Origin: Betaproteobacteria bacterium | GTDB taxonomy: Bacteria; Pseudomonadota; Gammaproteobacteria; Burkholderiales; SG8-39 | Assembly: GCA_016234705.1 (NCBI GenBank) | Contig: JACRAS010000043.1 | Location: 1-64,000 of the forward strand | DNA: 64,000 bases | Direction: 5' to 3' | In this document: in pieces, positions 6,339 to 58,446 of the stretch | How the letters are laid out: each line of letters starts with the position of its first letter | Numbering within the stretch: position 1 is the first letter of the stretch | Program-made: the position numbers and the translations under genes | The notes under the pieces: generated by a model | Told to the model about the DNA's origin: nothing | Databases searched by the model: none | Seen by the model: only the letters and a program-made list of their open reading frames with translations

Positions 6339-9300
6339 ATGGGGACCAGGAAGAATTCGGCCAGGAATATCAATGAAGCGCTGAAGCAATGCGAAAAACG
6401 CTTCCGTACTCTTATCCATCTGTCCTCCGAACGGTACTGGGAGCAGGATGAAAACTGCCGTTTCACCTTGGTCAGCGGCGGCACTTCGGAGCACGGAATC
6501 GATCCGACGAGTTTAGTCGGCACATTCCGCTGGGACCGGGGCGCGGTTCCGGTCGGCGACAGCGGCAGCTGGGACAAGCACAAGGCCGTCCTGCAAGCGC
6601 GGCAACCTTTCGCCGATTTTCTGTTCAAGCGCCTCGATTCCAAGGGCGAGCTGCGCTACATCAGCGCCAGCGGAAAACCCGTATTCGACGACAAGCGGAG
6701 CTTCCGCGGGTACCACGGCATTGCCAAGGACGTGACCCGAGAAAAGCGCGAGGAACTGCTGCTGCGGCTGGAGCATACGGTAACCCGCTCCCTCGCCGTG
6801 GCGGAGGGCGCCTTGGCGCCCCTCAAGGCGGTAATTCAGGCCGTATGCGAGACGGAGGGTTGGGACGGCGGCGTTTATTTTCGACTGGACGCCCACGCCA
6901 ACCTGCTGCGCTTGAGTCCCGAGGAATGCTGGAGCATCGAGGACCCCGCGGTCAAGCGCTATATCGGCGGTATGCGCGTAGTTATTTCTCCAGGCGTCGG
7001 CCTGGCGGGCCGGGTGTGGCAATCGGGACAAGCGCTATGGGTCACCGATCTTGGCACCGACGCCCGCGCGACGATGTCGAAGATTGCGCGCGAAACCGGC
7101 ATGCACGGCTCATTCGTATTTCCCGTCATATCAGAGGGAAAAACCGTCGGCGTGCTCGCTTTCGTCAGCCGCGAATTGCGCCACCCCGAGGAGCGGCTGC
7201 TGGATACGATCCATGTCATCGGCAGCCAGCTCGGCCAATTCGTCCAGCGCAAGCAGGCCGAAGACATCCTGCGGGAAAGCCAGGAGGAATTGCGCCGCTT
7301 TCGCGCCGCCATGGACAGCTCGGCGGACCTGGTCCTGCTGGTCGATCGCGCCACGATGCGTTACCTGGACTTCAACCAGACCGTGTGCAGAGCGCTCGGA
7401 TATTCGCGGGAAGAGCTGCTCAAAATGGGGCCGGAGGATCTCGTTTTGCGTCAGCAGGATCTCCTGCCGATGGGCCGCGAGGAGCTGGAGCGGGCCCACG
7501 ACGAGCTGATCACGAACCCGGGCGTCCACACCGGCTTGAGGGCCGTTTATCGCTGCAAGGACGGTTCGCGGCTGCCGGTCGAGGTGACGCGCACTGCGCT
7601 GTCCTCGGGCGGCTCTTACATTACCGTCGTCATCTCACGCGACATACGCGAGCAGATTGCCGCCGAGAATGCGCTGCGCGAAAGCGAGGAACGCTTCCGT
7701 AGCCTGACCCAGTTGTCATCGGATATGTATTGGGAGCAGGACGATCAGTACCGTTTCACCTCGATTGCCGGACGCGGCTTGGAGCGGGTCAAAGCCCGCG
7801 ACTTCCAATTTATCGGCAAGAAACCGTGGGAGCTGAATTACATCAATATGTCGGCGGACGACTGGGCCGCGCATATGGCGATTCTGGAAGCGCATCGGCC
7901 GTTTCACGACCTGGAGCTGTGCCGGGAGAACGAATCCGGCAAGAAGGTGTGGGTCAACGTCAGCGGCGAGCCCGCGTTCGACGCCTCCGGCGCGTTCAAG
8001 GGCTACCGCGGCGTCGGCAAGAACATCAGCGAGCGCAAGCAGGACGAGGAGCGCATCCGGTACCTGGCGAATCACGACGCGCTGACGTCGCTGCCGAACC
8101 GGGCCATGTTCAGCGAAGTGCTCAACCTCGCGCTCCACAACGCGCGGCGCTACAACGGCACTTTCGCCGTGCTGTTCATCGATCTGGACCGCTTCAAGAT
8201 CATCAACGACACCTTGGGTCACGAGGCCGGGGACAAGCTGCTGCAGGAAATGGGCACACGCCTTTCCCAGACCGTGCGCACGAGCGACGTCGTCGCCCGG
8301 CTCGGTGGCGACGAGTTCGTGGTGCTGGTCCGGGAAGTAAGCGAACCCAAGCAGGTCGAGGCGGCCGCGCGCAAGATCCTTTCCGCCCTGATCAAGCCGA
8401 TGTTCATACGCGAGCAGGAATGCAGGGTGACGGCAAGCATCGGCATCTGCATGTATCCGGCGGACGCCCAGGACGAGCAGTCGCTGATGAAGAACGCCGA
8501 TATCGCCATGTACCGCGCGAAGGAGGAAGGCAAGAACACCTACAAGTACTACTCCGAGGAGACCAACGTTCATTCGTTCGAACGGATGGCCCTGGAGACG
8601 AGCCTGCGCCGGGGTCTGGAGCGCGAGGAATTCTTCCTTCATTACCAGCCCAAGCTGGATCTTCAATCAGGGCAGATCAGCGGCGTGGAAGCGCTGGTGC
8701 GCTGGCAGCACCCCGAGCTGGGCATGGTGCCACCCGCCCAGTTCATCCCGCTCGCCGAGGAGACTGGGCTGATCGTGCCGATCGGCAAATGGGTGCTGAC
8801 CACCGCTTGCGCGCAGAATGTCGCCTGGCAGCGCGAGGGCCTGCCGCCATTGCGCATGGCGGTCAACCTGTCGGCGCGCCAGTTCGCCGATGAAGATCTG
8901 CTCAAGCACATCGCCGGGGCGCTGGAGCAGAGCGGGATGAAGGCGGAATTGCTGGAGATGGAACTCACCGAGAACATGATGATGCAGAACGCCGAACGGG
9001 CAGGCAAGGTGCTTGCCGCGATCAAGCAGTTGGGCGTGCGGCTCGCCATCGACGATTTCGGGGTTGGCTACTCCTCGCTTGCGAACCTGAAGCGCTTTCC
9101 GATCGACACGCTCAAGGTGGACCGCTCTTTCATTCGCGACATTCCGCAGGATTCCGAGGACAAGGCGATCACCCGGGCGATCATCGCCATGGGCAAGAGT
9201 CTCAACCTCACCGTCGTCGCTGAAGGGGTGGAGACGCCGGAGCAGGAGACGTTCCTGCGCGAGCACGGCTGTGACGAAACTCAAGGCTATCATTTCAGCA

Positions 9301-9365
9301 AGCCCATCGACGGCGACGAGTTCGCCGCGCTGCTTCGCCAGCGCATCGAGCCGCCGAGGAAATAG
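6339..9365 (+). CDS. PAS/GAF sensor diguanylate cyclase-phosphodiesterase (GGDEF-EAL)
   Basis: This 1,008-residue cytoplasmic protein has no transmembrane segment. Domain order is PAS (about 18-140), GAF (150-310), PAS (318-445), PAS (450-570), GGDEF (575-740) and EAL (750-1000). The GGDEF motif is intact at residues 656-660, with an upstream RTSD inhibitory-site motif. The EAL motif is intact at 784-786, followed by ELTENMMM, IDDFGVGYSSL, LKVDRSFI and VVAEGVET, so both synthesis and hydrolysis of c-di-GMP look possible. Two of the PAS domains share a W-E-Q-D motif that also appears in the HD-GYP protein near 45 kb as W-E-S-D. It is flanked by non-coding gaps of 216 and 259 bp and is probably monocistronic. 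Confidence 0.95.
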   Translation: MGTRKNSARNINEALKQCEKRFRTLIHLSSERYWEQDENCRFTLVSGGTSEHGIDPTSLVGTFRWDRGAVPVGDSGSWDKHKAVLQARQPFADFLFKRLDSKGELRYISASGKPVFDDKRSFRGYHGIAKDVTREKREELLLRLEHTVTRSLAVAEGALAPLKAVIQAVCETEGWDGGVYFRLDAHANLLRLSPEECWSIEDPAVKRYIGGMRVVISPGVGLAGRVWQSGQALWVTDLGTDARATMSKIARETGMHGSFVFPVISEGKTVGVLAFVSRELRHPEERLLDTIHVIGSQLGQFVQRKQAEDILRESQEELRRFRAAMDSSADLVLLVDRATMRYLDFNQTVCRALGYSREELLKMGPEDLVLRQQDLLPMGREELERAHDELITNPGVHTGLRAVYRCKDGSRLPVEVTRTALSSGGSYITVVISRDIREQIAAENALRESEERFRSLTQLSSDMYWEQDDQYRFTSIAGRGLERVKARDFQFIGKKPWELNYINMSADDWAAHMAILEAHRPFHDLELCRENESGKKVWVNVSGEPAFDASGAFKGYRGVGKNISERKQDEERIRYLANHDALTSLPNRAMFSEVLNLALHNARRYNGTFAVLFIDLDRFKIINDTLGHEAGDKLLQEMGTRLSQTVRTSDVVARLGGDEFVVLVREVSEPKQVEAAARKILSALIKPMFIREQECRVTASIGICMYPADAQDEQSLMKNADIAMYRAKEEGKNTYKYYSEETNVHSFERMALETSLRRGLEREEFFLHYQPKLDLQSGQISGVEALVRWQHPELGMVPPAQFIPLAEETGLIVPIGKWVLTTACAQNVAWQREGLPPLRMAVNLSARQFADEDLLKHIAGALEQSGMKAELLEMELTENMMMQNAERAGKVLAAIKQLGVRLAIDDFGVGYSSLANLKRFPIDTLKVDRSFIRDIPQDSEDKAITRAIIAMGKSLNLTVVAEGVETPEQETFLREHGCDETQGYHFSKPIDGDEFAALLRQRIEPPRK

Positions 9366-35507: not shown

Positions 35508-37460
35508 TCAGCCGATGGGCACGGGCCGTCCGTTCGCGTACCCCTGGTATCCGGCAAATCCTATTTCCCCAAGCAGCAGAATCAGGGATTCGGACTCGAC
35601 CGCCTGGGCAATGATCCGGATTTCGAGCGGCTGCGCGATGCGCATGAGCGAGGACACGATGAAGCGGCTGTCCTCGTTTTCCGCAAGTGCGTTCGTGTAT
35701 GCCGGCGCAAGCTTGATGTAATGCGGCAGCAGCTCGCGTAACAGCCTGAGCGAATCGCGGTGCAGATTGAAGTTGTCTATCGCGAACTGCGCCCCAAGCC
35801 GTCTGATCTCCGCGGCGAAGCCGAGGCTTTGCGCGGGGGCCCGGATCACGCCGAACTCGGTCATTTCGAACACCAGGCGCGCGGCGATATCGCGCCGGCC
35901 CCGCAGGGCATCGATCAGGCGGCGACGCGAGGCGGCATCGGCCACGGTCTGCGCCGAAATGTTGACGGCAATCACCGGCGCAAGGCTCGCGCCGGCGTCG
36001 ATCCGGGCGATCAGCATCTCGAGCACGCGGCAATCGAGCCGCGGCATCAGGCCGTGGCGCGCGGCCATCGGCAGGAACTGTGCCGCGGGCACGGGGTTGC
36101 TGCCGTCTTCCAGAATGCGCGTGACCACCTCGCTTTGCATCAGCGCGCGTCCGGGCAGGCTGAGGACGGTTTGCGTGTAGAGCGCCAGTTTGCCGGTTTC
36201 GATCGCACCCTCGAGGTGCTCGCGCCAGGCGAGCGAACCGCGCCCGCGCCGGTCGAGCTCGGCGAGTTCGACGAGATCGAAGGTGTCGGGTCCTTTTTCC
36301 TGCGCCCGGGTCAAGGCCAGATCCGCCGCGGCCAGCAACTCGGGCAACGCCGGCGCGCCCGCGTCGAAATGCGCCGCGCCGCAATGGAATTGGATCTCCC
36401 CGGTCAGCGCCTGCTCGGCAAGGGCTGATTCGACGCGGGAGCTGATCGCGGCGGTCAGAACGCCGGCAGCGCTCGCATCGATGTTGACCGCTGCTACGGC
36501 GAAGCTCGCCCCGCCGAAGCGCGAACGAACCGTTGCCTGGTCCGCGCAAGCGCTGGTGATGGTCTGCGCGACCAGGGCCAGCAGTTCATCGGCGCGCTGA
36601 TAGCCATGATGCAGGTTGTATTCCTTGAAGCGCTCCAGCTCCAGCAGCACGAACACCCCGGAGAAGACGTCGCGCTCGGCGCGAAACAGGCCCTGCAGTT
36701 GATGTTCGAGGCCGCGGCGATTGAATAAATCGGTGACCGGATCGCGGTAGGCCTCGCGCTGCAGTTGTTCCGCACGCGCCGATTCGTCCTCGATGAAGCG
36801 TCTGACTTTTCCCGATAGGCTGTTCATGGCGGCGACTACCCGTCCGAGTTCGCGCGCTTTGGGCGCGAGCGCTATCGTCCTGAAATCGCGTTCGCCGATG
36901 GCCGTTGCCGCCCGCTCGATCTCGGCGAGAGGCCGCAGTATGGTGGTGAGGAAGGCGCGCAGGGCGACGAGGGCGAGCGCGTATACCAGCAGCAGCAGTG
37001 CCAGCGTTTGCAGACCGGTGTGCCACAACTGCAGATAGGCGAAATTCGGATGGCTGCTCACCAGCACGCGCCCGAGCTGGCGCCATCCGGAGCTGATCAG
37101 GGATTCGGCAGCGGGCGGGCGCAGCGGAAAAAACCGCGTAAACCACACCGGCACCTCGCCCTGCGCGGGCGCCAGTTGCTTCGCCACCAGGGTTTCGCCG
37201 CTTACCGAAACCACGCGTATGGACTGATAGTAGCCGCGATCGAAGGTGGAATTGACCACCGTCTCGATCAGCGCGCGGTCCTCGAACGGATGCACCGTCG
37301 CCAGCCATAGCGAAAGCGAAGTCGCGGCATCCTGGGAATGCGATTCGAGTTGCTGTTGCACATAGAGCCGGGCGTTTGAGAGATAGATCGCCTCCACGCC
37401 CGCCAATACCAGCAGGAACAGCAGGGACGCGCCGAAAAACAATTGCTTGAAAAGAGTCAT
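35508..37460 (-). CDS. lapD: LapD-like c-di-GMP receptor (degenerate GGDEF-EAL)
   Basis: This 650-residue inner-membrane protein has a first helix (residues 5-25), a periplasmic LapD/MoxY-type domain (about 26-150), a second helix (about 151-173), a HAMP segment, then GGDEF and EAL domains. Both catalytic motifs are lost: GGASF at 316-320 replaces GGDEF, and S-E-V-V-T-R near 443-448 replaces the EAL region, with IDNF replacing DDFG. That is the LapD pattern: it binds c-di-GMP and holds the LapG protease at the periplasmic face. The lapG-like gene lies 30 bp upstream on the same strand. Confidence 0.9.
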   Translation of the reverse strand: MTLFKQLFFGASLLFLLVLAGVEAIYLSNARLYVQQQLESHSQDAATSLSLWLATVHPFEDRALIETVVNSTFDRGYYQSIRVVSVSGETLVAKQLAPAQGEVPVWFTRFFPLRPPAAESLISSGWRQLGRVLVSSHPNFAYLQLWHTGLQTLALLLLVYALALVALRAFLTTILRPLAEIERAATAIGERDFRTIALAPKARELGRVVAAMNSLSGKVRRFIEDESARAEQLQREAYRDPVTDLFNRRGLEHQLQGLFRAERDVFSGVFVLLELERFKEYNLHHGYQRADELLALVAQTITSACADQATVRSRFGGASFAVAAVNIDASAAGVLTAAISSRVESALAEQALTGEIQFHCGAAHFDAGAPALPELLAAADLALTRAQEKGPDTFDLVELAELDRRGRGSLAWREHLEGAIETGKLALYTQTVLSLPGRALMQSEVVTRILEDGSNPVPAAQFLPMAARHGLMPRLDCRVLEMLIARIDAGASLAPVIAVNISAQTVADAASRRRLIDALRGRRDIAARLVFEMTEFGVIRAPAQSLGFAAEIRRLGAQFAIDNFNLHRDSLRLLRELLPHYIKLAPAYTNALAENEDSRFIVSSLMRIAQPLEIRIIAQAVESESLILLLGEIGFAGYQGYANGRPVPIG

Positions 37461-37490: not shown

Positions 37491-38252
37491 TCAGTACAGC
37501 AATTCCTTTTCCAATTTCTCCAGCAAACCGCGCCACAACCTGATCTGTGACGAGCTGCCCGCACTGGCGTCGCGCTGGCCCTGGCGCACCAGCAGCAGAT
37601 CCTCGTCGTTGAAGCTGTACACCGGAATCAGGTCGGTTCGCTCCGATGCCGGCCTAACCGCGTCTTCCAGATTGTCCAGAACCAAGGGAACGGCTCCGGG
37701 CGCAGGATAGTACGCCAGCACCATGTGTGCCTGGTTGAGGCGCACCGCCTTGACGTAAGTGATCCTGAGGCGCTCGATCGGCACGCCCAGCTCTTTCAGG
37801 GCGAAGTACTTGGCGATGGAAAAGTCCTCGCAGTCCCCGCCGTTGCTGCCGAGCATTTCTGCCGGCGAGGCCCAATAATCTTCGACCCCCCAATGTGCCA
37901 GATCGGTGAGGAAGGGCAAGCGGTTGAAAAAAGTATTGACCGAGCCGAGCAGCTCCAGATCGTTGCCGGAGGGTTGCCGCTGCTCGGCTGCAATGGAGCG
38001 CACGAATTTTTGCCAGCCGCCGATGCGGGTTCCGCTGTCCGGTCCGAATTTGGCCGCGAAACGCTCCACCAGTCCCGCTGTCACGCTGCGCGAAAAGCCA
38101 AGTCCCTGCGTCGCCGCCAGCGCCACGCCCACACCGAGCGCGAACAGCGCAAGATGCCCGAGCCAGCCCTGGCCGCGCCGCCGCTCGGTGCCAGCGCAGA
38201 TTCGATCCGGTTTTGCGCGGAGGCCTGTCGGTAGTGCGTGACGTGCGGACAT
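37491..38252 (-). CDS. lapG: LapG-like periplasmic transglutaminase-fold cysteine protease
   Basis: With the ATG at 38252 this is 253 residues: one membrane/signal helix (GWLGHLALFALGVGVALAATQG) then a bacterial transglutaminase-like protease domain. The catalytic triad is visible as Cys141 (NGGDCEDFSIAKY), His176 (NQAHMVLAYY) and Asp193 (LVLDNLED). LapG cleaves large adhesins at the cell surface unless sequestered by c-di-GMP-bound LapD. It precedes the lapD-like gene in a two-gene operon. Upstream in-frame ATGs at 38279 and 38336 are possible but lie within the divergent promoter region. No LapA-type adhesin is in the window. Confidence 0.88.
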   Translation of the reverse strand: MSARHALPTGLRAKPDRICAGTERRRGQGWLGHLALFALGVGVALAATQGLGFSRSVTAGLVERFAAKFGPDSGTRIGGWQKFVRSIAAEQRQPSGNDLELLGSVNTFFNRLPFLTDLAHWGVEDYWASPAEMLGSNGGDCEDFSIAKYFALKELGVPIERLRITYVKAVRLNQAHMVLAYYPAPGAVPLVLDNLEDAVRPASERTDLIPVYSFNDEDLLLVRQGQRDASAGSSSQIRLWRGLLEKLEKELLY

Positions 38253-38351
38253 CGCCTGATTGTACTCAATCGTGGGCATCGGAGCGCCACCGCCGGGCGC
38301 AAGCTCGGGTACAATCGAATTTGGCTCACTATCCAAGGGAGACGGTTCGCC

Positions 38352-40011: not shown

Positions 40012-43000
40012 ATGCGTAACTTCTTGTTTAGCCTAAGAACCAGGGCTCTGCTGCTGGCTGGCGTGGCATTTGCGGTTTTCCTTGGAACAATGGGGTTTCA
40101 TGCGGCGGCTGAACGCCAGATGCGTCTGAAATTCGTCAGAGAGCACCTGCAGGACACGGCAAAGCTGATTGCGGCCCAGCACAGCCATGTCATCGAATAC
40201 GCGCAGCAGCTTCTCGACTCCCTGATTCGGGCCCAGAACGGGCGCCAGACTATCTTGTCAGAGGACTGCCAGCGCACACTCGCGCAGCGGCTCCGGGAAG
40301 AGCCTCGAATCGCCAATATCATCATGGCGCTGCCTGACGGAAGCGTGGTTTGCAGTGCACTGCCGAGCGCTCGGCGGATCAATATTGCCGACCACCAGCC
40401 CCATTTCCGCCAGGCGCTCGCGTCGCCGGGCGTGGTTATCGGGGAAGCGGTTGACAGTCCGATAACCGGCAAACGGAGTCTTCCGTTCTTTAAAGCTGTC
40501 CGGGACTCAAGCGGGCGCACGCTTGCGCTATTTGCGGTTACGCTTGACCTGGCCGGACTCGCAACAGAGTTCGCTAACGCCAAGTACCCCGATGGCGCCA
40601 GGATTGGTTTAATCGACGCCCAGGGAAGGGTGCTTGCGAGGTACCCCGACGCCGAGGGATGGGTGGGGAAGGATGCCTCGGGCACGTCATTCTTCAAGGC
40701 CGTCGCGGCACGCGGCGGCGAGGGTGCGTTCGAGGAACTTGGATTCGACGGCGTGCCGCGTATCTACGGGCTGGCGCGCTTTGCCGAGACCGCGTCCGGG
40801 TCGATATCGCTTTGGTTCGGATTCGAGAAGAAGACGGTTACCGCGGACGTGGAGCGTGACTTCGCATGGACTGTCCTCGCCGTAGCGGGCCTGCTGTTGG
40901 TGACATTTGTTGTGATCTGGGCCGGAGCCGAACGCTTGCTCCTGCGCCCGCTCTCGGTCCTATCGGCAGCCGCGCGCCGAATGGGCCGGGGCGATTTGAA
41001 CGCCCGTACCGGGCTCGAACACGCTCGCGACGAATTGGGGAGGCTGGCGCAATCGTTCGACGAAATGGCGATGTCGATCGAGGCCAAGGACCGACACATC
41101 GTCCTTGCCAATCGCGCGGTCAGGGTGCTCTCGACGTGGAATCAGGCACTCCTCACGCCACGTAATGAAACGTTGCTGATTGAATACCTGTGCCGGGCCA
41201 TTGTCGAGGCCGGCGGCTACGGGGGCGCATGGGTGGGCTTCGCCAGGTCCGACCAGAACAAAACCGTCGAGCCGGTCGCGTGGTGGGGCCTGGATTCCGA
41301 GTTCGTTGCCGGCTTGGGAGTCACCTGGGCGGATACCCCACGCGGTCGCGGCCCGGCCGGTAGCGCGATTCGTCGTGGCACCGCGGTAATTGTGAACGAC
41401 GTCATGACAAACCCCGACATCGCGCCGTGGCGCGAAGACCCGCTGCAGCGTCAGCTCAACGCGATAATCGCCCTTCCGCTGAAGGTGGATGGCGCGGTCA
41501 TTGGTGCGCTCTCGATTCACGCGGCGGAGTCCGAATCGTTCGGTGAGCAGGAGGCCGTGCTGCTCACCGAAGTGGCGGCGGCGCTCTCCTCCGGGATAGC
41601 CGCGGTCCGCACGCGCGAGGCGCACACTCAGCTTGAAGTGTCACTGCAAACCAGCGAGGAACGATTCCGTGCCGCTGCCGAGGCGAGCCTGGATGCGCTC
41701 CTGGTGCTGAAGAGCGTGCGCGATGCGGCCGGCAATATCGTCGACTTTGAAGTTGCGGATATGAACGGCCGCGCCGCGCGCGAGCTCGGCCTGGCGAAAG
41801 ACCAGGTCATCGGCAAGACCTTTTTTCAACTGATTCCAGTCTACAGAACCGCGGAATTTTTCAACAAGTACGTTCATGTCGTTGCGACCAGGATGCCTTT
41901 GGAAGAGGAATTTCCGTTTGACCTGCCCAGAGCGGAAAGGAAGTGGTTCAGGCAGCAGGTGGTCGCAGTTGGCGACGGCATTGCAGTTTCGCTGCGCGAC
42001 ATTACGGTTTGGAAGACAGCGGGTGACAAGATTAGGGAAGGCGAGGAGCGGCTACGGCTGGCGATGGCCGGCGCCCATATGGGGGCGTGGAGCGTGGATA
42101 TGGAGAGCAAAACGTACTCCATATCGGAGGACGTTGGACCGATATTCGGCTTGTCCAAGGAAGCGGGACCCCGGAGAACCCGGGCCCTGATGGAAGCTGT
42201 ATACCCGGACGACCGCGAGGCACTGGCAAAGGCGATGCAGCGAGACCGGGAGACGGCGAAACCGGCACACAGGGAATTCAGGGTGTTGTGGCCGGACGGT
42301 ACGGTCCATTGGGTGGAAGCGCGTAGCAACGTCATTTGCGATAAGGCCGGTAAGCCCGCGCGCAGCGTCGGCGTGCTTACCGACATTACGCAGCGCAAGC
42401 TGGATGTAGTGGCCCTGCAACGCGCCAACCGGGCACTCAAGACGCTGTCGGCGTGCAACGACGCGCTGGTGCATGCGAGCAGCGAATCCGGGCTTTTGCA
42501 TGAAGTGTGCCGCGTCATCGCGGACAAGGGGGGATATCGGATGGCATGGGTGGGTTACCCACGAAATGACGAGGAAAAAACTATCGTCCCCATGGCCTGG
42601 GCGGGCGTGGAGGACGGGTATCTCGCCGCGGTGAAGCACACCTGGGCCGATACCGAGCAAGGCCAAAGACCCATTGCCAGAGCTCTTCGGAGCGGCAAAG
42701 CGGAAACTACCCGGGATGTCCGGGACAACCCCGCGTTTGCATCCGTCGTAGAGTTGGTGGCAAGGCCAGGCTACGTTTCCAACCTCGCGTTGCCCTTACT
42801 CGACGGGAACAGCGTCATCGGCGCAATGAGTATTTTCGCGTCGGAGGCCGACGCGTTTGATGATGCGGAAGTACTGCTGTTACAGGAACTCGCCGAGGAC
42901 CTCGCCTATGGAATTGCCACATTGCGTACGCGGGAGGAGCGCGACCGTATTGCGCATGCGCACCAGCACCACGAGGCAATTCTGCGTAAGAGTCTCGAGG

Positions 43001-43563
43001 ACAGCATTCAGGCTATTGCCTCAACCGTGGAAATGCGCGACCCGTATACCTCGGGCCATCAGGAACGCGTGGCCGAGTTGGCTGTGGCGCTCGCGCGGGA
43101 AATGGGTCTTCCCGAGGAACGGATTCATGGGCTACACCTCGCCGGTGTCGTCCACGACCTCGGAAAAATCAGCATTCCGGCTGAAATTCTTGCCAAGCCG
43201 GGGAAGCTGACGCCTATCGAGTTCCTGCTGATTAAGGGTCATGCCCAAGCGGGGTACGAGATTCTCAAGGACATTGACTTCCCCTGGCCTATCGCAACCA
43301 TTGTTCGGCAACACCATGAGCGGCTCGATGGCTCCGGCTACCCCCAGGGACTCAAAGGGGGGGACATTATCTTGGAGTCCCGAATTATGGCGGTGGCGGA
43401 CGTGGTCGAAGCCATGGGCTCGCACCGGCCCTACCGACCCACATTAGGAATCGACGTCGCGTTGCGGGAAATCGAGCGGGGCCGTGGTATCCAATATGAC
43501 CCGGCGGTCGCCGACGCGTGTTTAAAGTTGTTTCGGGAAAGCCATTACACTCTGGTGACCTAG
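40012..43563 (+). CDS. Membrane sensor HD-GYP c-di-GMP phosphodiesterase (Cache-HAMP-GAF-PAS-PAS-GAF-HD-GYP)
   Basis: This 1,183-residue protein has a signal-anchor (about 8-28), a periplasmic dCache-type sensor (30-280, with FRQALASPGVVIGEAVDSPITGKRSLPFFKAVRD), a second helix (283-305), HAMP, GAF (370-530), PAS (545-670), PAS (680-800), GAF (815-975) and HD-GYP (990-1183). The HD dyad is at 1048-1049 (VVHDLGKISIP) and GYP at 1109-1111 (HHERLDGSGYPQGLKG), so it should hydrolyse c-di-GMP. It is convergent with another HD-GYP gene whose catalytic domain is closely similar. Confidence 0.94.
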   Translation: MRNFLFSLRTRALLLAGVAFAVFLGTMGFHAAAERQMRLKFVREHLQDTAKLIAAQHSHVIEYAQQLLDSLIRAQNGRQTILSEDCQRTLAQRLREEPRIANIIMALPDGSVVCSALPSARRINIADHQPHFRQALASPGVVIGEAVDSPITGKRSLPFFKAVRDSSGRTLALFAVTLDLAGLATEFANAKYPDGARIGLIDAQGRVLARYPDAEGWVGKDASGTSFFKAVAARGGEGAFEELGFDGVPRIYGLARFAETASGSISLWFGFEKKTVTADVERDFAWTVLAVAGLLLVTFVVIWAGAERLLLRPLSVLSAAARRMGRGDLNARTGLEHARDELGRLAQSFDEMAMSIEAKDRHIVLANRAVRVLSTWNQALLTPRNETLLIEYLCRAIVEAGGYGGAWVGFARSDQNKTVEPVAWWGLDSEFVAGLGVTWADTPRGRGPAGSAIRRGTAVIVNDVMTNPDIAPWREDPLQRQLNAIIALPLKVDGAVIGALSIHAAESESFGEQEAVLLTEVAAALSSGIAAVRTREAHTQLEVSLQTSEERFRAAAEASLDALLVLKSVRDAAGNIVDFEVADMNGRAARELGLAKDQVIGKTFFQLIPVYRTAEFFNKYVHVVATRMPLEEEFPFDLPRAERKWFRQQVVAVGDGIAVSLRDITVWKTAGDKIREGEERLRLAMAGAHMGAWSVDMESKTYSISEDVGPIFGLSKEAGPRRTRALMEAVYPDDREALAKAMQRDRETAKPAHREFRVLWPDGTVHWVEARSNVICDKAGKPARSVGVLTDITQRKLDVVALQRANRALKTLSACNDALVHASSESGLLHEVCRVIADKGGYRMAWVGYPRNDEEKTIVPMAWAGVEDGYLAAVKHTWADTEQGQRPIARALRSGKAETTRDVRDNPAFASVVELVARPGYVSNLALPLLDGNSVIGAMSIFASEADAFDDAEVLLLQELAEDLAYGIATLRTREERDRIAHAHQHHEAILRKSLEDSIQAIASTVEMRDPYTSGHQERVAELAVALAREMGLPEERIHGLHLAGVVHDLGKISIPAEILAKPGKLTPIEFLLIKGHAQAGYEILKDIDFPWPIATIVRQHHERLDGSGYPQGLKGGDIILESRIMAVADVVEAMGSHRPYRPTLGIDVALREIERGRGIQYDPAVADACLKLFRESHYTLVT

Positions 43564-43814: not shown

Positions 43815-46469
43815 CTATGCGGGAATCGCGTAGCCCTTCTCCCGGAACAGCCTCAGGCAGGCGTCGGCAACGACAGGATCGTATTTGCTTCCGCGACCGC
43901 GCTCGATCTCGGCCAGCGCCGCTTCGATTCCGAGCCCAGGGCGGTAGGGCCGGTGCGAGGACATCGCCTCGATCACGTCCGCCACCGCCATGATGCGCGC
44001 CTCGAACAAGATCGCCTCGCCCTTGAGGCCCTGCGGATAGCCGCTGCCGTCCATGCGCTCGTGATGCTGCAGCGCGACCTCGGCCACCGGCCAGGGAAAC
44101 TCAACGTCCTTCAGCACGTCGTGGCTCGCCTGCGGATGGGCCTGAATCAAGCGGAACTCGAGCGGGCTGAGCTTGCCGGGCTTGGACAGAATCTCCGCGG
44201 GAATGGTGATCTTGCCGATATCGTGCAGATAGCCGGCGACCCGCAAGCCCTCGATCCGCCGCCCGTCGAATCCGAGCTCGGCGCCGATCGCGACGGCAAT
44301 CTTGCCCACCCGCCGCTCGTGGCCGGCGGTGTACGGATCGCGCATCTCGCTCAAGGTCGTCGCCACTTCGACGGTGCTCGTGAACGCGGTTTCCAGTTGC
44401 GCGACATAGCGCTGGATCTGCTCCTCGGCGCGTTTTTTGTCGGAGATGTCCTGCATCAGCCCGATGATCGCCGGCCGGCCGTTACGAGTCACGCGGGCAC
44501 CGTGCACGCCGACCTCGATCGTGGCGCCGTCCTTGCGCACGGCGGTGAAGCCGTAGCTGATGCTCGGCACATTGTCTTCGAGCCGCAGGCGTATGTTCTC
44601 GGTGACCATGCCGCGGTGCTCCTCGGCGATGATCGACAGCGGGTGGCGGCCGATCAATTCGTCGGCGGAGGCGTAACCGAGGATCTCGGCGAAGCGGGGA
44701 TTCACATAGGTGAGCTTATCGTCCTGGATGATGTAGATGCCGGCGATCGACTGCTCCACCAGGCCGCGGAACTGTTGTTCCGCCGCGCGCAGGGCTTGCT
44801 CCGATCGCTTGCGCTCGGTGATGTCGGCGCCGACACCGTGATAGCCTTTGAATGCGCCTGAAGCATCGAACACCGGATCGCCGCTGATCCACATAAAGTG
44901 TTCGGCGCCGTCAGTGCCCACGCGCGAAAGTTCGAAATCGCGGAACGGACGGTGTGCGTCGAGCACCGCCCGGTGCGCCAGCCAGCCCGCCTCGTCGGGC
45001 GAAAGATAGGGCACTTCCCAACGGCGCTTGCCGATTTTCGCGCCCTCCCGGAACACCGACAGCGTGCTCGGCTTGCTGCCGGAGCTGCGCCGCGTCAGCC
45101 GGTGCTCGGCGTCGCTCTCCCAATAAAAATCGGAGGACATCTCGGTCAGGCTGCGAAAGCGCGCCTCGCTCTCGCCCAGCGCTTGTTCTGCGTTCTTGCG
45201 CTCGGTAATGTCGCGCATGAAGCCGGTGAAAAACTGGTCCTCTCCGACGGTCCACTCCGCCAGCGAAAGTTCCAGCGGAAATTCGCTTGTGTCCTTGCGC
45301 CGTCCTACCAGTTCAACAATAGTGCCGATAATGCGCCGCTCGCCGCCGGATTGCACCCGCTTCATGCCGTCGAGATGCCGGTCCTGGAATCGTTGCGGCA
45401 TCAGCAGCGTCAGCGGCTGCCCGATGACCTCGGTTTCCGCGTAGCCGAATATGCGCTCGGCACTCGGGTTCCAGCCCACGATGCGCCCGGCGGCGTCGCC
45501 GGTTACAAATGCATCGATGGCTGACGCTGCCACTGCCGCGTAGCGCAGTTCCCTGGCGCGCATGTCCTTCTCCGCCCTCTTGCGCTCGGTAATGTGGGTG
45601 CCCACGCCGCGGTATCCCTGGAATGTGCCGGCGGCATGGAATACCGGATCGCCGCTGACCGCGATATGAAGCTCGACGCCATCGGCGCGCAGGCGCGAGA
45701 ATTCGAAATCGCGGAATGGCAGGTGCGCGTCGAGCACCGCCCGGTGCGCCTCCCAGCCGGCTTCGTCCGGCGTAAGATACGGCGCCTGCCAGCGGCGTTT
45801 GCCGAGCACCTGGCCGTGCGGCAACACCTGCGCCGCATCTTCTCCCCTGCTGGTGCTGAACTGCGTCAGCCGGTGCTCGGCGTCGCTCTCCCAATAAAAA
45901 TCGGAGGACATCTCGGTCAGGCTGCGAAAGCGCGCCTCGCTCTCGCGCAAAGCGTTGCTCGCCGTCTCAAGTTCCGCCGTGCGCTCGGCAACGCGGCGCT
46001 CCAGGGCCTCGTTTGCCGCGAGCAAGGCGCTTTCTGCTTGCTCTCGGCGCGTCACTTCCCCTTGCAACGCCCGATTCGCGTTTTCGAGCTGCACGTGGCT
46101 GGGGATCGTGAGCGCTTTGGGTACCAGTGGCCAAAGCAGGAACGCGGTCGCGGCGGACACGCTCGCGGTGAGCGCCTTGAGCCCCGCATCAGCCCAGTAA
46201 TCGGCATGCCATATATTCCAGATCGCGAACAGGTGCGTGGCGCCGCACGCCAGCACGAATGCGCCGAACATCAGGAACATCCAGCGAAAAGGAACATCCG
46301 GCCGTTTTTGGACGAAGTACCAGAGCGCGAACGGAATCGAAAAATAGGACGCTGCGATGATAAAATCCGATACGACATAGATCCACAGCAGCGACGGCGT
46401 CCAAAAGAAACAATGACCATGCGGCATGAAACCGGTGGTTCCGAAGTAATTCGCAAGGTTGTCGAGCAT
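43815..46469 (-). CDS. ETR1-like membrane sensor, multi-PAS HD-GYP phosphodiesterase
   Basis: From the ATG at 46469 (GGAGG at good spacing) this is 884 residues. Residues 1-125 form a three-helix membrane domain like plant/cyanobacterial ethylene receptors: SDFIIAASYFSIPFALWYFV and FGAFVLACGATHLFAIW. D35, Y42, I45, P46, C75 and H79 match ETR1 D25, Y32, I35, P36, C65 and H69 with a constant offset of ten. A coiled coil (about 140-185), four PAS domains (about 190-690) and HD-GYP follow (HD at 749-750, GYP at 810-812). It probably hydrolyses c-di-GMP in response to a membrane-domain ligand, perhaps via Cu(I). Confidence 0.93.
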   Translation of the reverse strand: MLDNLANYFGTTGFMPHGHCFFWTPSLLWIYVVSDFIIAASYFSIPFALWYFVQKRPDVPFRWMFLMFGAFVLACGATHLFAIWNIWHADYWADAGLKALTASVSAATAFLLWPLVPKALTIPSHVQLENANRALQGEVTRREQAESALLAANEALERRVAERTAELETASNALRESEARFRSLTEMSSDFYWESDAEHRLTQFSTSRGEDAAQVLPHGQVLGKRRWQAPYLTPDEAGWEAHRAVLDAHLPFRDFEFSRLRADGVELHIAVSGDPVFHAAGTFQGYRGVGTHITERKRAEKDMRARELRYAAVAASAIDAFVTGDAAGRIVGWNPSAERIFGYAETEVIGQPLTLLMPQRFQDRHLDGMKRVQSGGERRIIGTIVELVGRRKDTSEFPLELSLAEWTVGEDQFFTGFMRDITERKNAEQALGESEARFRSLTEMSSDFYWESDAEHRLTRRSSGSKPSTLSVFREGAKIGKRRWEVPYLSPDEAGWLAHRAVLDAHRPFRDFELSRVGTDGAEHFMWISGDPVFDASGAFKGYHGVGADITERKRSEQALRAAEQQFRGLVEQSIAGIYIIQDDKLTYVNPRFAEILGYASADELIGRHPLSIIAEEHRGMVTENIRLRLEDNVPSISYGFTAVRKDGATIEVGVHGARVTRNGRPAIIGLMQDISDKKRAEEQIQRYVAQLETAFTSTVEVATTLSEMRDPYTAGHERRVGKIAVAIGAELGFDGRRIEGLRVAGYLHDIGKITIPAEILSKPGKLSPLEFRLIQAHPQASHDVLKDVEFPWPVAEVALQHHERMDGSGYPQGLKGEAILFEARIMAVADVIEAMSSHRPYRPGLGIEAALAEIERGRGSKYDPVVADACLRLFREKGYAIPA
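45092..45175. repeat. 84-bp exact direct repeat inside the ETR1-like gene, copy 1
   Basis: These 84 bases are identical to 45863-45946. They encode the start of PAS domain 3 (ESEARFRSLTEMSSDFYWESD-type text). The 771-bp spacing is a whole number of codons, consistent with an in-gene module duplication or recent gene conversion. Confidence 0.9.
45863..45946. repeat. 84-bp exact direct repeat inside the ETR1-like gene, copy 2
   Basis: This is the copy encoding the start of PAS domain 1. The surrounding PAS1 and PAS3 sequences are similar but not identical, so the exact identity is confined to this block. Confidence 0.9.
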
Positions 46470-46585
46470 CGCATGCCTCCGGTAGGTCGCGAGGTCGCTT
46501 GATTGTAATCCAACAATCACGCGGGTTGTGGCGTGGCCACTAATTCCGACGATTTGAAAATGGAAACGGTTCTTGCGCCGTATCT

Positions 46586-46615
46586 TTGCCAATGTTCAAT
46601 AAAATGACGCATAAT
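46586..46615 (+). promoter_or_regulatory. Possible promoter of the DUF349 gene
   Basis: TTGCCA (46586-46591), an 18-bp spacer and CATAAT (46610-46615) precede the DUF349 gene. Transcription would start about five bases before the ATG at 46627, and no Shine-Dalgarno sequence is visible. The mRNA may therefore be nearly leaderless, or the true start lies downstream. Confidence 0.35.
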
Positions 46616-46626
46616 TAACCGATACC

Positions 46627-49431
46627 ATGATCAGCAGCCTGTTCTCACTTACTCCCTTGCATCAACACGCCGAACCTGCGCAACGCACTCTTGGCATTGC
46701 CGCGCTGCCACCGGATTCGGGCGAGCTTGCGCAACTGCTGGTCACCGACCCGGCGCCGGAGGTGCGCATTGCCGCCGCGCAGCGTTGTACCGATCTGGCT
46801 GCGCTAGGCTCTGCCCGGGAAACGGAAGCCGATGCCGCCGTGCGGCTTGCGCTCGCCTCCGCGCTGGGCGATGTGCTTGCGCGAACGCAGGACGGCGCGG
46901 GCGCGCAGGCGCTGCTCGCGGCGGATCGGTGCACGGATGCAATCCGGATCGAAGTGGCGCGCCGCGCCAAGGACGCGGAGCGCCGCCGCAGCGCGATCGC
47001 CTCGATCCGAGATGAAGCCGCGCTGGTCGAGCTCGCCCTTCTCGCCGGGCATGCGGAGACGCGCATGGCGGCGGCGGAGCGCGTGCGCACGCCAGAGGGC
47101 TTGCGCAAGCTCGCCGATGCGGCAAAGGACAAGGATCACGGCGTGGCCAGGCTCGCCCGGAAGCGGACCGACGCGATCAAGCAACGCCAGGAACAGGACG
47201 CCGAAGCCGACGCCATCATCGCGCAATTGGAAGCGCTGGCGTCCGAGCCCGGTCCGATACTTACCGCGGTGATCGAACTCAACCGCCGCTGGCAGGCGCT
47301 GGACATGAGCGGCGAGACTACGCGCCTCGCGCGCTGCGAGATTGCGCGCCAGGCCATTCAGGCGCGCTTCGAGCGCGAGCAAAATGAACAACGGGCGCGG
47401 GTGCAGTTCGAACGCAGGCTAAGCGCATGGTTCGAAGCACTGGGAACCACGGCACCCGCCGCGCCGGATGCGCTCACCGCGATGCGCGCCGAGCTCGCCA
47501 CGCTACGCGCCGAAGCACGCGAGCGCAGCGATGATGCTGCGTTCGCGCGCCTCGACCAGGCGGAGGGCCGCATCGCGCGATGGGAGGAAGAGCTCCAGGC
47601 GCTCGCCGGCACGCTGGCGCTGGTGCTCGAAGCCGAGCAGCTTGCCGCGGGCACGTCGATCGACCACGCGGAACTGCCGGCGCGCTGGCAGGCGCTCAGC
47701 CGGACGATTCGCACGCCGGAGTTGACGCGGCGCTTCGAAGCCGCGATGACGACGGTGGAGCAGCGGCGGCTGGCGCAGATCCAAGCTGTGCAGCAGGAAG
47801 CGAACGCGGCGCGGCAGCATGTCCATGCCCTGTTGCACACGGCCGAGCAGGCGCTCGCCGCGGGCCAGGTGCAGGCGGCGCGCGCGGCTGCCGACGAAAT
47901 CAAGGCCCTCAAGACCGGGGCGGGCCTGCTGCCGAAGCCGAGCACGCAGCGGCTGGGCCGCCTGGTGCAGCAGTTGGTCGAACTCGAACGCTGGGAATCG
48001 TTCGGCCAGCAAAACGCGCGCGTGCAGTTGTGCGAGCGCGCCGAAGCCGCGGCGAAGCAGACCGTGGATGCGCCGCAACTCGCGCTCGAAGTGCAGAAGC
48101 TGCGCGGCGAATGGAAAGCGCTGGACCAGCAGCACGCGGGCGTGCCCAAGGCGCTGTGGGAGCGCTTCGACGGCGCCTGCGAAAAAGCTTACGCCCCTGC
48201 GGCCAGATATTTTGCCGAGCTCGGGGCGCAAAGAAAGGAAGCGCGCAAGCGGCGCGAGGAGTTCATCGCGGCGGCGACGGCGCAGGCGCCGACCCTGCTC
48301 GCGCAGCCCGTCGACTGGCGCGCGCTCGAGCGCTGGCTGCGCGAAATTGACCAAGGATGGCGCGAAGGCGATCTGGGCAGCGTCGATCCGGGCGCATGGA
48401 AAAAGCTCGATTTGCGCTTCAAGGCGGCGCTCGCGCCGGCGCGCGAGGCTTTGTCAGAGGCGCGCGCTCGCGCCAGGGCGGGGCGCCAGGCCCTGATCGA
48501 CGAGGCCACGGCGCTGGTAGCCAAAGCGATGGAGCGCGAGGTGCCCTCGCAAGTCAAGGCGATCCAGGCCCGCTGGCAGGCCGAGGCCAAGGAGTTGCCG
48601 CTGGCGCAGCGCGACGAGCGCGCGCTGTGGACCAAGTTTCGCGCGGCCTGTGACGCCGTGTTCGAGGCGCGCCAGAGCAAGCGCAAGGAAGAGGACGGCC
48701 GCAAGAACGAGCATCGCCACGCGCTGCAGGAACTGTGCGCGCAACTCGAGCAACTCGCGCGCGATGCAGGCAAGGAGGACCAGGAACTGCGCCGCGCGCT
48801 GCGCGATCTGCAGGAGCAGTGGAAACAGAAGGCCGGCGCATCCAGTCCCGATCTGCGCGAGTTTGAATCCCGCTTCACCAAAGGGAAAGCCGCGCTGGAG
48901 GCGATGCTGTCGGCGCGGGTGCGTTCCCGCGAAGCGGCGGTATGGCAGACCCTGGCGGCGAAACAGCGCTTGTGCGAGGAACTGGACGCTTTGGTGCGCT
49001 CGGGCGGCGCTGCCGCCGATTTCGAGGCGCAGTCGGCGGCGGCACAGGAACGATGGGCGGCTTTGCCCGCCCTGCCGGCTGCCTGGGAGAAAAAAATGCT
49101 GGCGCGGCGCGACGCCGCGCTAGTCGCGCTCACCGAGGCGGCCGCGGCCGGAAAATACCTGACGCGGATGGAGCAGGGCGCTGGATCGCGCCGCGAAGGC
49201 CTGCTCGAACTCGAGTTGCTGCTGGGCATGGACAGCCCGGTTGAATTTCAGCAGCAACGGCTGGCGCTTCAGGTAAAGAAGCTAAAGGAGCGTTTCAGCA
49301 GCGCGGCAAGCACCGGTCCCGTCACTGCTGCCGAGCGCCTGCTTGCATGGTGCGCCCAAGCGGGCGTGGCCGATGCGCTCGACCGGCAGCGCTGCGAACG
49401 AATTCTGTCGAGAGTCGAGCAGGCGCGCTGA
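46627..49431 (+). CDS. DUF349 domain-containing coiled-coil protein
   Basis: This 934-residue alanine- and arginine-rich helical protein has an N-terminal HEAT-like region (about 20-175, with LLVTDPAPEVRIAAAQRCTDL and RMAAAERVRTPEGLRKLADAAKDKDHGVARLARKR). Several DUF349 three-helix repeats follow (KALDQQHAGVPKALWERFDGACEKAYAPAARYFAELGAQRKEARKRREEF is the clearest, with others near 600-740). No signal peptide or membrane segment is present. The function of DUF349 proteins is not established. It is divergent from the ETR1-like gene. Confidence 0.85.
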   Translation: MISSLFSLTPLHQHAEPAQRTLGIAALPPDSGELAQLLVTDPAPEVRIAAAQRCTDLAALGSARETEADAAVRLALASALGDVLARTQDGAGAQALLAADRCTDAIRIEVARRAKDAERRRSAIASIRDEAALVELALLAGHAETRMAAAERVRTPEGLRKLADAAKDKDHGVARLARKRTDAIKQRQEQDAEADAIIAQLEALASEPGPILTAVIELNRRWQALDMSGETTRLARCEIARQAIQARFEREQNEQRARVQFERRLSAWFEALGTTAPAAPDALTAMRAELATLRAEARERSDDAAFARLDQAEGRIARWEEELQALAGTLALVLEAEQLAAGTSIDHAELPARWQALSRTIRTPELTRRFEAAMTTVEQRRLAQIQAVQQEANAARQHVHALLHTAEQALAAGQVQAARAAADEIKALKTGAGLLPKPSTQRLGRLVQQLVELERWESFGQQNARVQLCERAEAAAKQTVDAPQLALEVQKLRGEWKALDQQHAGVPKALWERFDGACEKAYAPAARYFAELGAQRKEARKRREEFIAAATAQAPTLLAQPVDWRALERWLREIDQGWREGDLGSVDPGAWKKLDLRFKAALAPAREALSEARARARAGRQALIDEATALVAKAMEREVPSQVKAIQARWQAEAKELPLAQRDERALWTKFRAACDAVFEARQSKRKEEDGRKNEHRHALQELCAQLEQLARDAGKEDQELRRALRDLQEQWKQKAGASSPDLREFESRFTKGKAALEAMLSARVRSREAAVWQTLAAKQRLCEELDALVRSGGAAADFEAQSAAAQERWAALPALPAAWEKKMLARRDAALVALTEAAAAGKYLTRMEQGAGSRREGLLELELLLGMDSPVEFQQQRLALQVKKLKERFSSAASTGPVTAAERLLAWCAQAGVADALDRQRCERILSRVEQAR

Positions 49432-56538: not shown

Positions 56539-58446
56539 TCACAATCCGGCCTTGCGCAGGCCGTCCTGGGCCTTGGCCTTGAGCTCGGCATCGACGAAAC
56601 GCGTGCCAAACAATTCGATGCGGAAAAACGGATCGCGCCGGCGCAATTGATCCGCCGCGTTACGCGCTTCCTCCACGTTTCCCATCTGCCCGAGAGTGGC
56701 GGCGCGCACGGCGTGCAGGTATACGTATTCCGGCGCAAGCGCCAGTGCCGTGTCAGCCGCGGCGAGCGCCTCCTTATAGCGCACCGCGGTGTAATACGCC
56801 ATCGCCAGAGTGAAGCCAGAATCCGGGTCGATGCGAGGGTCGAACCGGTGCGCGGCCTCGCTCGCGGCGATCGACTCGTCGAGCCGGCCCAACCACAGCA
56901 AGGCCTCACCGCGCAGCGCGTCGGCAAATGCGTCGCTGACGTTCTGCTCGATGGCGCGGTCGGCCTCCACCAGCGCCCGGTCGAATTGCCCGTTAGAGGA
57001 GTAGACCCGGGCGAGCAGCGCGTGCGCGCGCGCGTTCGCCCCGGGTTCCTCCAGCGCGAGTGCTTGCCTGGCGAGTTCCTCTCCGCGTCTCAGTCCTGCC
57101 TCGGGATTTTCCGTCCATCCCAGTCCGGTGCGCTGCAATTCGGCTGCCGCGAGCTGGACGTAGGCCTCGGCGTACTTCGGTGAGAGCTTGAGCGCCTGTT
57201 CGATCATCTCGCGCGCTTCGCGGTTGGCGCTGCGCTCCGAGCGGCTGATCAGCTCGCGCGCGCGCAGCACCAGGTCATAGGCCTGCAGGCTCTCGGTCGG
57301 TTTGGCGAACACGCGCTGCTGCTCCAGGCGCGTGAGTTTCACCGCGAGCGCGCCGACGATGTTCTTCACGATCCGGTCCTGGATCTCGAACACCTGCTTG
57401 CCCTCGCCCTCGTAGCGCTCGGACCACAGCAGCGTGCCCGACGCCGCATCGCTGAGTTCGACCGCGACGCGCAGCCTCCCGTCCGCCTCGCGCACGCTGC
57501 CCTGAACAACGTAGCGCACGCCGAGTTCCCGGCTGATTTCCTCTCCGGTGGCGTTGCGACTCTTGTATTCCTGCACGGCGTTGCGCGCGATCACCATGAC
57601 GCCGGAAAATCGTCCGAGCGCGTTAATGATGTCCTCGGTGATGCCGTCGCTGAAGTAGTCGCGTTTCTCGCCGCCGCTCTGGTTGGCAAACGGCAGCACG
57701 GCGATGGCGGCGCGCGAGTCGGAAATCCCGGCCGGCTTGCCGGCGACGAGCGCCGCGGCCGAGGAGCGCACCCGTTTGGCAAACTCCGGCGGCGCGAAGA
57801 ACAAGCCCGCGACGGCGGCGACGAGCAAGACGGCGATGCCGGCGGATGCGCGCCGCCACGCGCCGCGCCGCTCCGGCAAGCTCAGCTTGCCCGGCGCCGC
57901 GGCGGCGCTGCCGGGGCCGCTCAGGTCGAGCGCGTACACGTGCACCGGCCGGGCGATGTTTTTCACCGCGTGCTCGCCACGGTCGACGCAGCGGTACGCG
58001 ATCTTGTCGCGCACCTGCTCGTAGGCGCTCGCCGAAATCGCGACCCCGCCCGGCTCGCAGATGCCCTCCAGCCGGGCGGCGATGTTGACGCCGTCGCCGT
58101 AGACGTCGTCGCCTTCGATGATGATATCGCCGAGGTTGATGCCGATCCGCAGCACGATGCGGCGCTCCGCCGGGTCGGCGGCGCCACGCGACGCCATTTC
58201 GATCTGTATCTTCGCAGCGCATTGCGCCGCCGCGACGACGCTGGTGAACTCCGCCAGCAATCCGTCGCCGGTGGTCTTGAAGATGCGGCCGTGGTGCGAC
58301 GCGATGGCCGGATCGATCACTTCCGTACGCAGCGCCTTGAGCCGCGCCAACGTCGCCTCTTCGTCAGCCCCCATCAGCCGGCTGAAGCCGACGATATCCG
58401 CGGCGAAAATAGCGGCGAGCCGGCGCTGGACGATTTCCGGGGTCAT
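56539..58446 (-). CDS. Class III adenylate/guanylate cyclase with TPR repeats
   Basis: This 635-residue protein has a class III nucleotidyl cyclase domain (about 8-170: LAAIFAADIVGFSRLMGADEEATL with the metal-binding Asp, KTTGDGLLAEFTSVVAA, RIGINLGDIIIEGDDVYGDGVNIAARLEGI). One transmembrane helix follows (about 201-218), then a TolB/FlgO-like beta-domain (AIAVLPFANQSGGEKRDYFSDGITEDIINALGRF) and TPR repeats (about 400-610). This arrangement is common in proteobacteria; the ligand and whether it makes cAMP or cGMP cannot be told. The start at 58446 is the first of the frame. Confidence 0.93.
   Translation of the reverse strand: MTPEIVQRRLAAIFAADIVGFSRLMGADEEATLARLKALRTEVIDPAIASHHGRIFKTTGDGLLAEFTSVVAAAQCAAKIQIEMASRGAADPAERRIVLRIGINLGDIIIEGDDVYGDGVNIAARLEGICEPGGVAISASAYEQVRDKIAYRCVDRGEHAVKNIARPVHVYALDLSGPGSAAAAPGKLSLPERRGAWRRASAGIAVLLVAAVAGLFFAPPEFAKRVRSSAAALVAGKPAGISDSRAAIAVLPFANQSGGEKRDYFSDGITEDIINALGRFSGVMVIARNAVQEYKSRNATGEEISRELGVRYVVQGSVREADGRLRVAVELSDAASGTLLWSERYEGEGKQVFEIQDRIVKNIVGALAVKLTRLEQQRVFAKPTESLQAYDLVLRARELISRSERSANREAREMIEQALKLSPKYAEAYVQLAAAELQRTGLGWTENPEAGLRRGEELARQALALEEPGANARAHALLARVYSSNGQFDRALVEADRAIEQNVSDAFADALRGEALLWLGRLDESIAASEAAHRFDPRIDPDSGFTLAMAYYTAVRYKEALAAADTALALAPEYVYLHAVRAATLGQMGNVEEARNAADQLRRRDPFFRIELFGTRFVDAELKAKAQDGLRKAGL

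Follow-up and report, generated by a model that had tools for sequence, protein, structure and literature searches.

A candidate ethylene sensor with an HD-GYP output domain in an uncultured betaproteobacterial family

Overview of the gene and its product

In this study, we describe a betaproteobacterial gene whose product joins an ETR1-type ethylene-binding domain (EBD) to four PAS domains and a C-terminal HD-GYP domain. We propose that this protein is a one-component membrane ethylene sensor, which couples the Cu(I) site of the EBD to the hydrolysis of c-di-GMP by the HD-GYP domain, and we put the probability of this reading at roughly 0.6. To our knowledge, signalling by the ethylene receptors characterised to date runs via proteins of the histidine-kinase type. 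In the openly accessible literature, as far as titles and abstracts tell, no fusion of an ethylene receptor with an HD-GYP domain was found. The HD-GYP output of an EBD is the new part here; that bacterial ethylene receptors affect biofilm is already known.

The window (the whole 64,000-nucleotide stretch of DNA that was analysed) carries the gene with the following parts:

43815..46469, minus strand: EBD-PAS4-HD-GYP gene (884 amino acids plus stop on translation; Pfam)
46476..46480, minus strand: ribosome-binding site GGAGG, 6 nt before the ATG, read from the sequence
46098..46469, minus strand: ETR1-type EBD, residues 1-124 (Pfam ETR1_N, E 1.1e-38; AzoEtr1 alignment)
45960..46097, minus strand: helical signalling linker, residues 125-170 (residues 125-139 modelled as helix, the remainder deduced from sequence)
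45570..45959, minus strand: PAS1, residues ~171-300 (PAC-end motif ITERKRAE at 293; duplicate of PAS3)
45195..45569, minus strand: PAS2, residues ~301-425 (Pfam PAS_9 and PAS; PAC-end motif ITERKNAE at 421)
44802..45194, minus strand: PAS3, residues ~426-556 (PAC-end motif ITERKRSE at 550; 68% identical to PAS1)
44415..44801, minus strand: PAS4, residues ~557-685 (Pfam PAS_8 and PAS_3; PAC-end motif ISDKKRAE at 675)
43818..44414, minus strand: HD-GYP domain, residues 686-884 (Pfam HD_5, E 1.8e-42; PDB chains 5z7c, 9rbz, 4mcw and 4r8z)

Translation yields 884 amino acids and a stop from 46469 to 43815 on the minus strand, so the coordinates, frame and stop given by the first-pass annotation are correct. 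The ATG at 46469 is backed by the ribosome-binding site and also by homologues that begin at the same methionine; the listed open reading frame reaches an upstream TTG at 46592, for which neither kind of support exists. A chimeric contig as the origin of the fusion is ruled out by the synteny of the gene and its neighbours in G010, a genome of the same genus.

The ethylene-binding domain

The first-pass annotation had recognised an ETR1 fold in residues 1-125. The Pfam profile ETR1_N (PF25487) indeed scores 131.8 bits (cut-off 27) and covers positions 2-96 of its 97, and the first 127 residues align without a gap with AzoEtr1 of Azospirillum brasilense (60/127 identical), so that D35, C75, H79 and K98 have the same residue numbers in both proteins. 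A chance likeness of a few residues is ruled out by the Pfam E-values within the same ORF.

In plants, the Cys and His of the ETR1 EBD are the Cu(I) ligands. Both putative ligands and the helix-1 Asp are present here (C75, H79 and D35): in an alignment with ETR1, C75 and H79 fall at C65 and H69, and the annotated equivalence of D35, Y42, I45, P46, C75 and H79 with ETR1 D25, Y32, I35, P36, C65 and H69 holds at a constant offset of ten. Ethylene binding by ETR1 needs D25, Y32, I35, P36, I62, C65 and H69. Six of these seven residues are identical in the window protein, and the seventh, I62, is replaced by V72, on which the earlier annotation was silent. Among 90 aligned EBDs this position holds Ile in 79/90 and Val in 10/90, the latter including members from the window's own family. 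V72 is a conservative change but the one weak point among the key residues, and with it ethylene binding by this domain is an inference.

The predicted structure is in line with this assignment:

46305..46397, minus strand: predicted membrane helix 1, residues 25-55 (AlphaFold2), carrying D35, Y42, I45 and P46
46209..46286, minus strand: predicted membrane helix 2, residues 62-87 (AlphaFold2), carrying V72, C75 and H79
46110..46199, minus strand: predicted membrane helix 3, residues 91-120 (AlphaFold2), carrying K98 (ETR1 K91)

AlphaFold2, supplied with 50 aligned EBDs from the window and the collected loci (mean pLDDT 86), models three long helices with pLDDT mostly 90-95, the number for which the first-pass annotation had proposed a structure prediction. 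C75 and H79 lie on the second predicted membrane helix, separated by one turn. A solved structure of the EBD was not found by PDB sequence search (weak matches only, best E 0.011), by Foldseek with the model (no match at E <= 0.001) or by VIA-align of the model (Z < 9, usual for helical bundles).

We identified AzoEtr1 by its published cloning primer, which has exact matches where the plasmid loci L008 and L009 begin (PMC11819568); the open frame of L009 has 525 residues, the published length. Residues 1-130 of AzoEtr1 bind 14C-ethylene saturably in yeast, and D35A and C75A are regarded as predicted non-binding mutants (PMC11819568). The AzoEtr1 frame of A. brasilense MTCC4038 (L008:2501-3130) ends after ~207 residues, unlike that of MTCC4039, owing to a frameshift or a sequencing error.

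The membrane domain might instead have kept the ETR1-type metal site for another purpose and would then signal the presence of copper or of some other small ligand, or the redox state, to the HD-GYP domain. A copper sensor could use C75 and H79 as its Cu(I) ligands just as well, V72 stands in place of the prevailing Ile at a site needed for ethylene binding in ETR1, and the closest relatives are MAGs from groundwater rather than plant-associated bacteria. We nevertheless regard a sensor of this kind as unlikely, given the ungapped similarity to the ethylene-binding AzoEtr1 and a scan of the neighbours of the EBD gene in which no copper-resistance gene was found.

Distribution and modular origin of the architecture

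A profile search places an EBD above the cut-off in six of the 98 genomes of the window's family. The orthologue in G010 is 92.5% identical, with the neighbourhood kept from gcvP to the DUF349 gene. G049 (L011) encodes, at another locus, an EBD-PAS-HD-GYP protein of 751 amino acids. In G046 (L012), EBD and PAS are followed by masked runs of N and, in a different frame, by PAS and HD-GYP; since the masked N break this gene, it is counted as a probable EBD-HD-GYP case. In G050 (L010), an EBD belonging to the same clade is joined to a histidine kinase output. Thus, four EBD-HD-GYP cases, the interrupted one of G046 included, all occur in one uncultured family. Among named relatives, groundwater and RIFCS betaproteobacterial MAGs stand closest, and given this, the link of the EBD-HD-GYP architecture to plants is weak. 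Soil microbes also make ethylene.

The rarity of this output became apparent in a survey that covered a GTDB scan, proteobacterial samples, cyanobacteria, Verrucomicrobiota and plasmids. Among 222 distinct EBD proteins, including the best 80 of 433 GTDB loci and classified with profiles built in this analysis with some long frames read in part, the output is a histidine kinase in 178/222, a c-di-GMP synthase-type domain in 26 further proteins (GGDEF+EAL 14/222, GGDEF 12/222) and HD-GYP in 3/222, the last only in the window's family; 15/222, among them the interrupted G046 protein, received no output class. EBD-GGDEF-EAL proteins occur in Methylobacter, Methylotenera and other methylotrophs (L017, L032, L062, L063, L064, L083 and others), and between seven and nine EBD matches were counted in each of the cyanobacterial genomes G1331, G1199 and G1301.

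The locus itself varies between sister species:

46627..49431, plus strand: DUF349 gene, divergent (Pfam; locus marker across the genus)
L336:1732-4143 and L338:865-3363: EBD-less PAS-GAF-PAS-HD-GYP genes of two sister species, same locus as the window gene

In the sister species G011 and G014, a homologous PAS-PAS-GAF-PAS-HD-GYP gene that lacks the EBD lies between the DUF349 and GST genes. In G009, G012, G013, G017, G020 and G021 the gap between GST and DUF349 is ~0.8-1.3 kb and contains no HD-GYP gene. A tree of the PAS4-HD-GYP part groups the window and G010 proteins with the EBD-less pair (68% support). The presence of EBD-less homologues at the same locus indicates that the EBD was either gained by or lost from the HD-GYP gene at this site, and that the enzyme can also operate when controlled in another way. 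The same locus with and without an EBD in sister species also provides a natural comparison. Within the window's genome, a search with the HD-GYP domain returns six matches, its own included; two of these paralogues share 85% and 79% identity with it and have, judged by eye, a Cache-like sensor with HAMP and a receiver domain, respectively, at their N-termini.

This modularity also bears on the idea that the EBD, taken over from a histidine-kinase receptor, serves above all to anchor the protein in the membrane or to dimerise it, with sensing left to the PAS domains and the HD-GYP domain answering to them. The EBD-less homologues of G011 and G014 would fit such a role, as would the paralogues with dCache or REC where the EBD sits. 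However, the EBD ligand residues are kept in the alignment across the family clade, and between the window and G010 the EBD is under stronger constraint than either PAS1 or PAS3 (dN/dS, calculated from few changes: EBD 0.17, HD-GYP 0.23, PAS1 0.62, PAS3 0.35). These values are consistent with purifying selection on both the EBD and the HD-GYP domain, i.e., with constraint at both ends of the protein, and we consider a mainly structural EBD improbable.

PAS domains and HD-GYP output

The annotated composition of four PAS domains and an intact HD-GYP domain without a histidine kinase agrees with our analysis. Four PAC-end motifs (293, 421, 550 and 675) and the Pfam PAS models support the PAS domains, of which PAS1 and PAS3 arose by duplication (68% identical), and the Pfam scan finds no kinase family. 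In the HD-GYP region, which also matches the Pfam family HD (E 1.7e-19), the signature HD...HDxGK...HHExxDGxGYP...D is complete: H717, H749-D750, K753, H778, H802-H803, G810-Y811-P812 and D831 are present. The metal-ligand motifs of solved HD-GYP phosphodiesterases are thereby kept, and the PDB matches are 5z7c (V-cGAP3, E 2.5e-38), 9rbz (9.2e-35), 4mcw (PmGH, 3.3e-32) and 4r8z (4.1e-26). The Glu of the PmGH motif 'ETQNH' is replaced by Tyr in the window protein ('YTAGH'), a change that points to a site with two metals instead of three.

The substrate is not certain, as the best PDB match is a 3'3'-cGAMP phosphodiesterase. The window's genome has ~19 GGDEF genes (from 20 matches, two of which apparently fall in one gene) and four PilZ matches, which implies that c-di-GMP signalling exists in this bacterium, and together with a LapD-like receptor these genes make c-di-GMP the likely substrate. 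That 3'3'-cGAMP or some other cyclic dinucleotide is the substrate, or that the domain serves in protein interaction, is quite improbable in spite of the match to the cGAMP-specific V-cGAP3, because the c-di-GMP enzyme PmGH matches almost as well and the genome is rich in c-di-GMP genes.

Genomic neighbourhood

Several c-di-GMP related genes lie close to the EBD gene:

40012..43563, plus strand: dCache-HAMP-GAF/PAS-HD-GYP sensor, convergent neighbour (Pfam; syntenic in G010)
37491..38336, minus strand: LapG-like periplasmic cysteine protease, Peptidase_C93 (Pfam)
35508..37460, minus strand: LapD-like receptor, LapD_MoxY_N-HAMP-GGDEF-EAL (Pfam)

The LapD- and LapG-like pair is located ~5.5-8 kb from the EBD gene on the same strand, with the GST gene and the second HD-GYP sensor (40012-43563) in between. 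In the LapD/LapG systems that are known, LapG is set free when c-di-GMP is low and then cuts a surface adhesin. Since lapD and lapG are also present in G011, where the HD-GYP gene lacks the EBD, and in G017, where the site has no HD-GYP gene, the tie between this pair and the function of the EBD gene is suggestive only. Elsewhere, the window encodes a PAS-GAF-GGDEF-EAL protein (6339-9365), and in all at least four of its proteins are related to c-di-GMP; a further protein (56539-58446) combines an adenylate/guanylate cyclase domain with TPR repeats.

Proposed mechanism

For the ethylene sensor that we favour, we envisage the following steps. The three N-terminal helices would form an ETR1-type Cu(I) site, with copper held by C75 and H79 on helix 2 and D35 on helix 1 assisting. 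Binding of ethylene at Cu(I) would shift the arrangement of the helices, and the helical linker and the four PAS domains, which probably add a second input, would relay this change to the HD-GYP domain. This domain would hydrolyse c-di-GMP, and ethylene, as either an activator or an inhibitor of this activity, would thus shift the c-di-GMP pool. The pool may be read by the nearby LapD/LapG-like adhesion switch, by which surface attachment would be changed without a phosphorelay. An ethylene- or copper-to-c-di-GMP signal, as read in the first-pass annotation, is plausible. More tentatively, and with somewhat less than an even chance in our estimation, ethylene would directly alter c-di-GMP breakdown through a single protein encoded near a LapD/LapG-like switch, governing surface release or commitment in subsurface bacteria without a phosphorelay.

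If true, ethylene would be connected directly to c-di-GMP, and its binding could be read out by a simple enzymatic assay, which would help in studies of signal transmission by an EBD. An ethylene sensor in subsurface bacteria would, in addition, widen the role of ethylene beyond plants.

Comparison with known systems

A close characterised counterpart is AzoEtr1, in which PAS likewise comes after the EBD and which affects biofilm (PMC11819568). Unlike AzoEtr1, which combines a histidine kinase with a response regulator, the window protein consists of an EBD, four PAS domains and HD-GYP, with no phosphorelay. Arabidopsis ETR1 shares an EBD that is 42% identical, with the ligand residues at an offset of ten, but differs by its GAF-histidine kinase-receiver output, its location in the ER membrane and I62 in place of V72. 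SynEtr1 and GeiEtr1/2 of cyanobacteria are bacterial EBD receptors as well, yet with histidine-kinase outputs; SynEtr1 acts on biofilm and phototaxis and is also a photoreceptor (PMC6682694, PMC6508509). The EBD-GGDEF(-EAL) proteins of Methylobacter, Methylotenera and others resemble the window protein in carrying an EBD and a c-di-GMP enzyme in one chain, but there the enzyme comprises synthase or synthase/EAL domains instead of HD-GYP. PmGH (4mcw) and V-cGAP3 (5z7c), in turn, share all HD-GYP motifs with the window protein but are without an EBD. With an HD-GYP output and no histidine kinase, the window protein is therefore not a two-component ethylene receptor.
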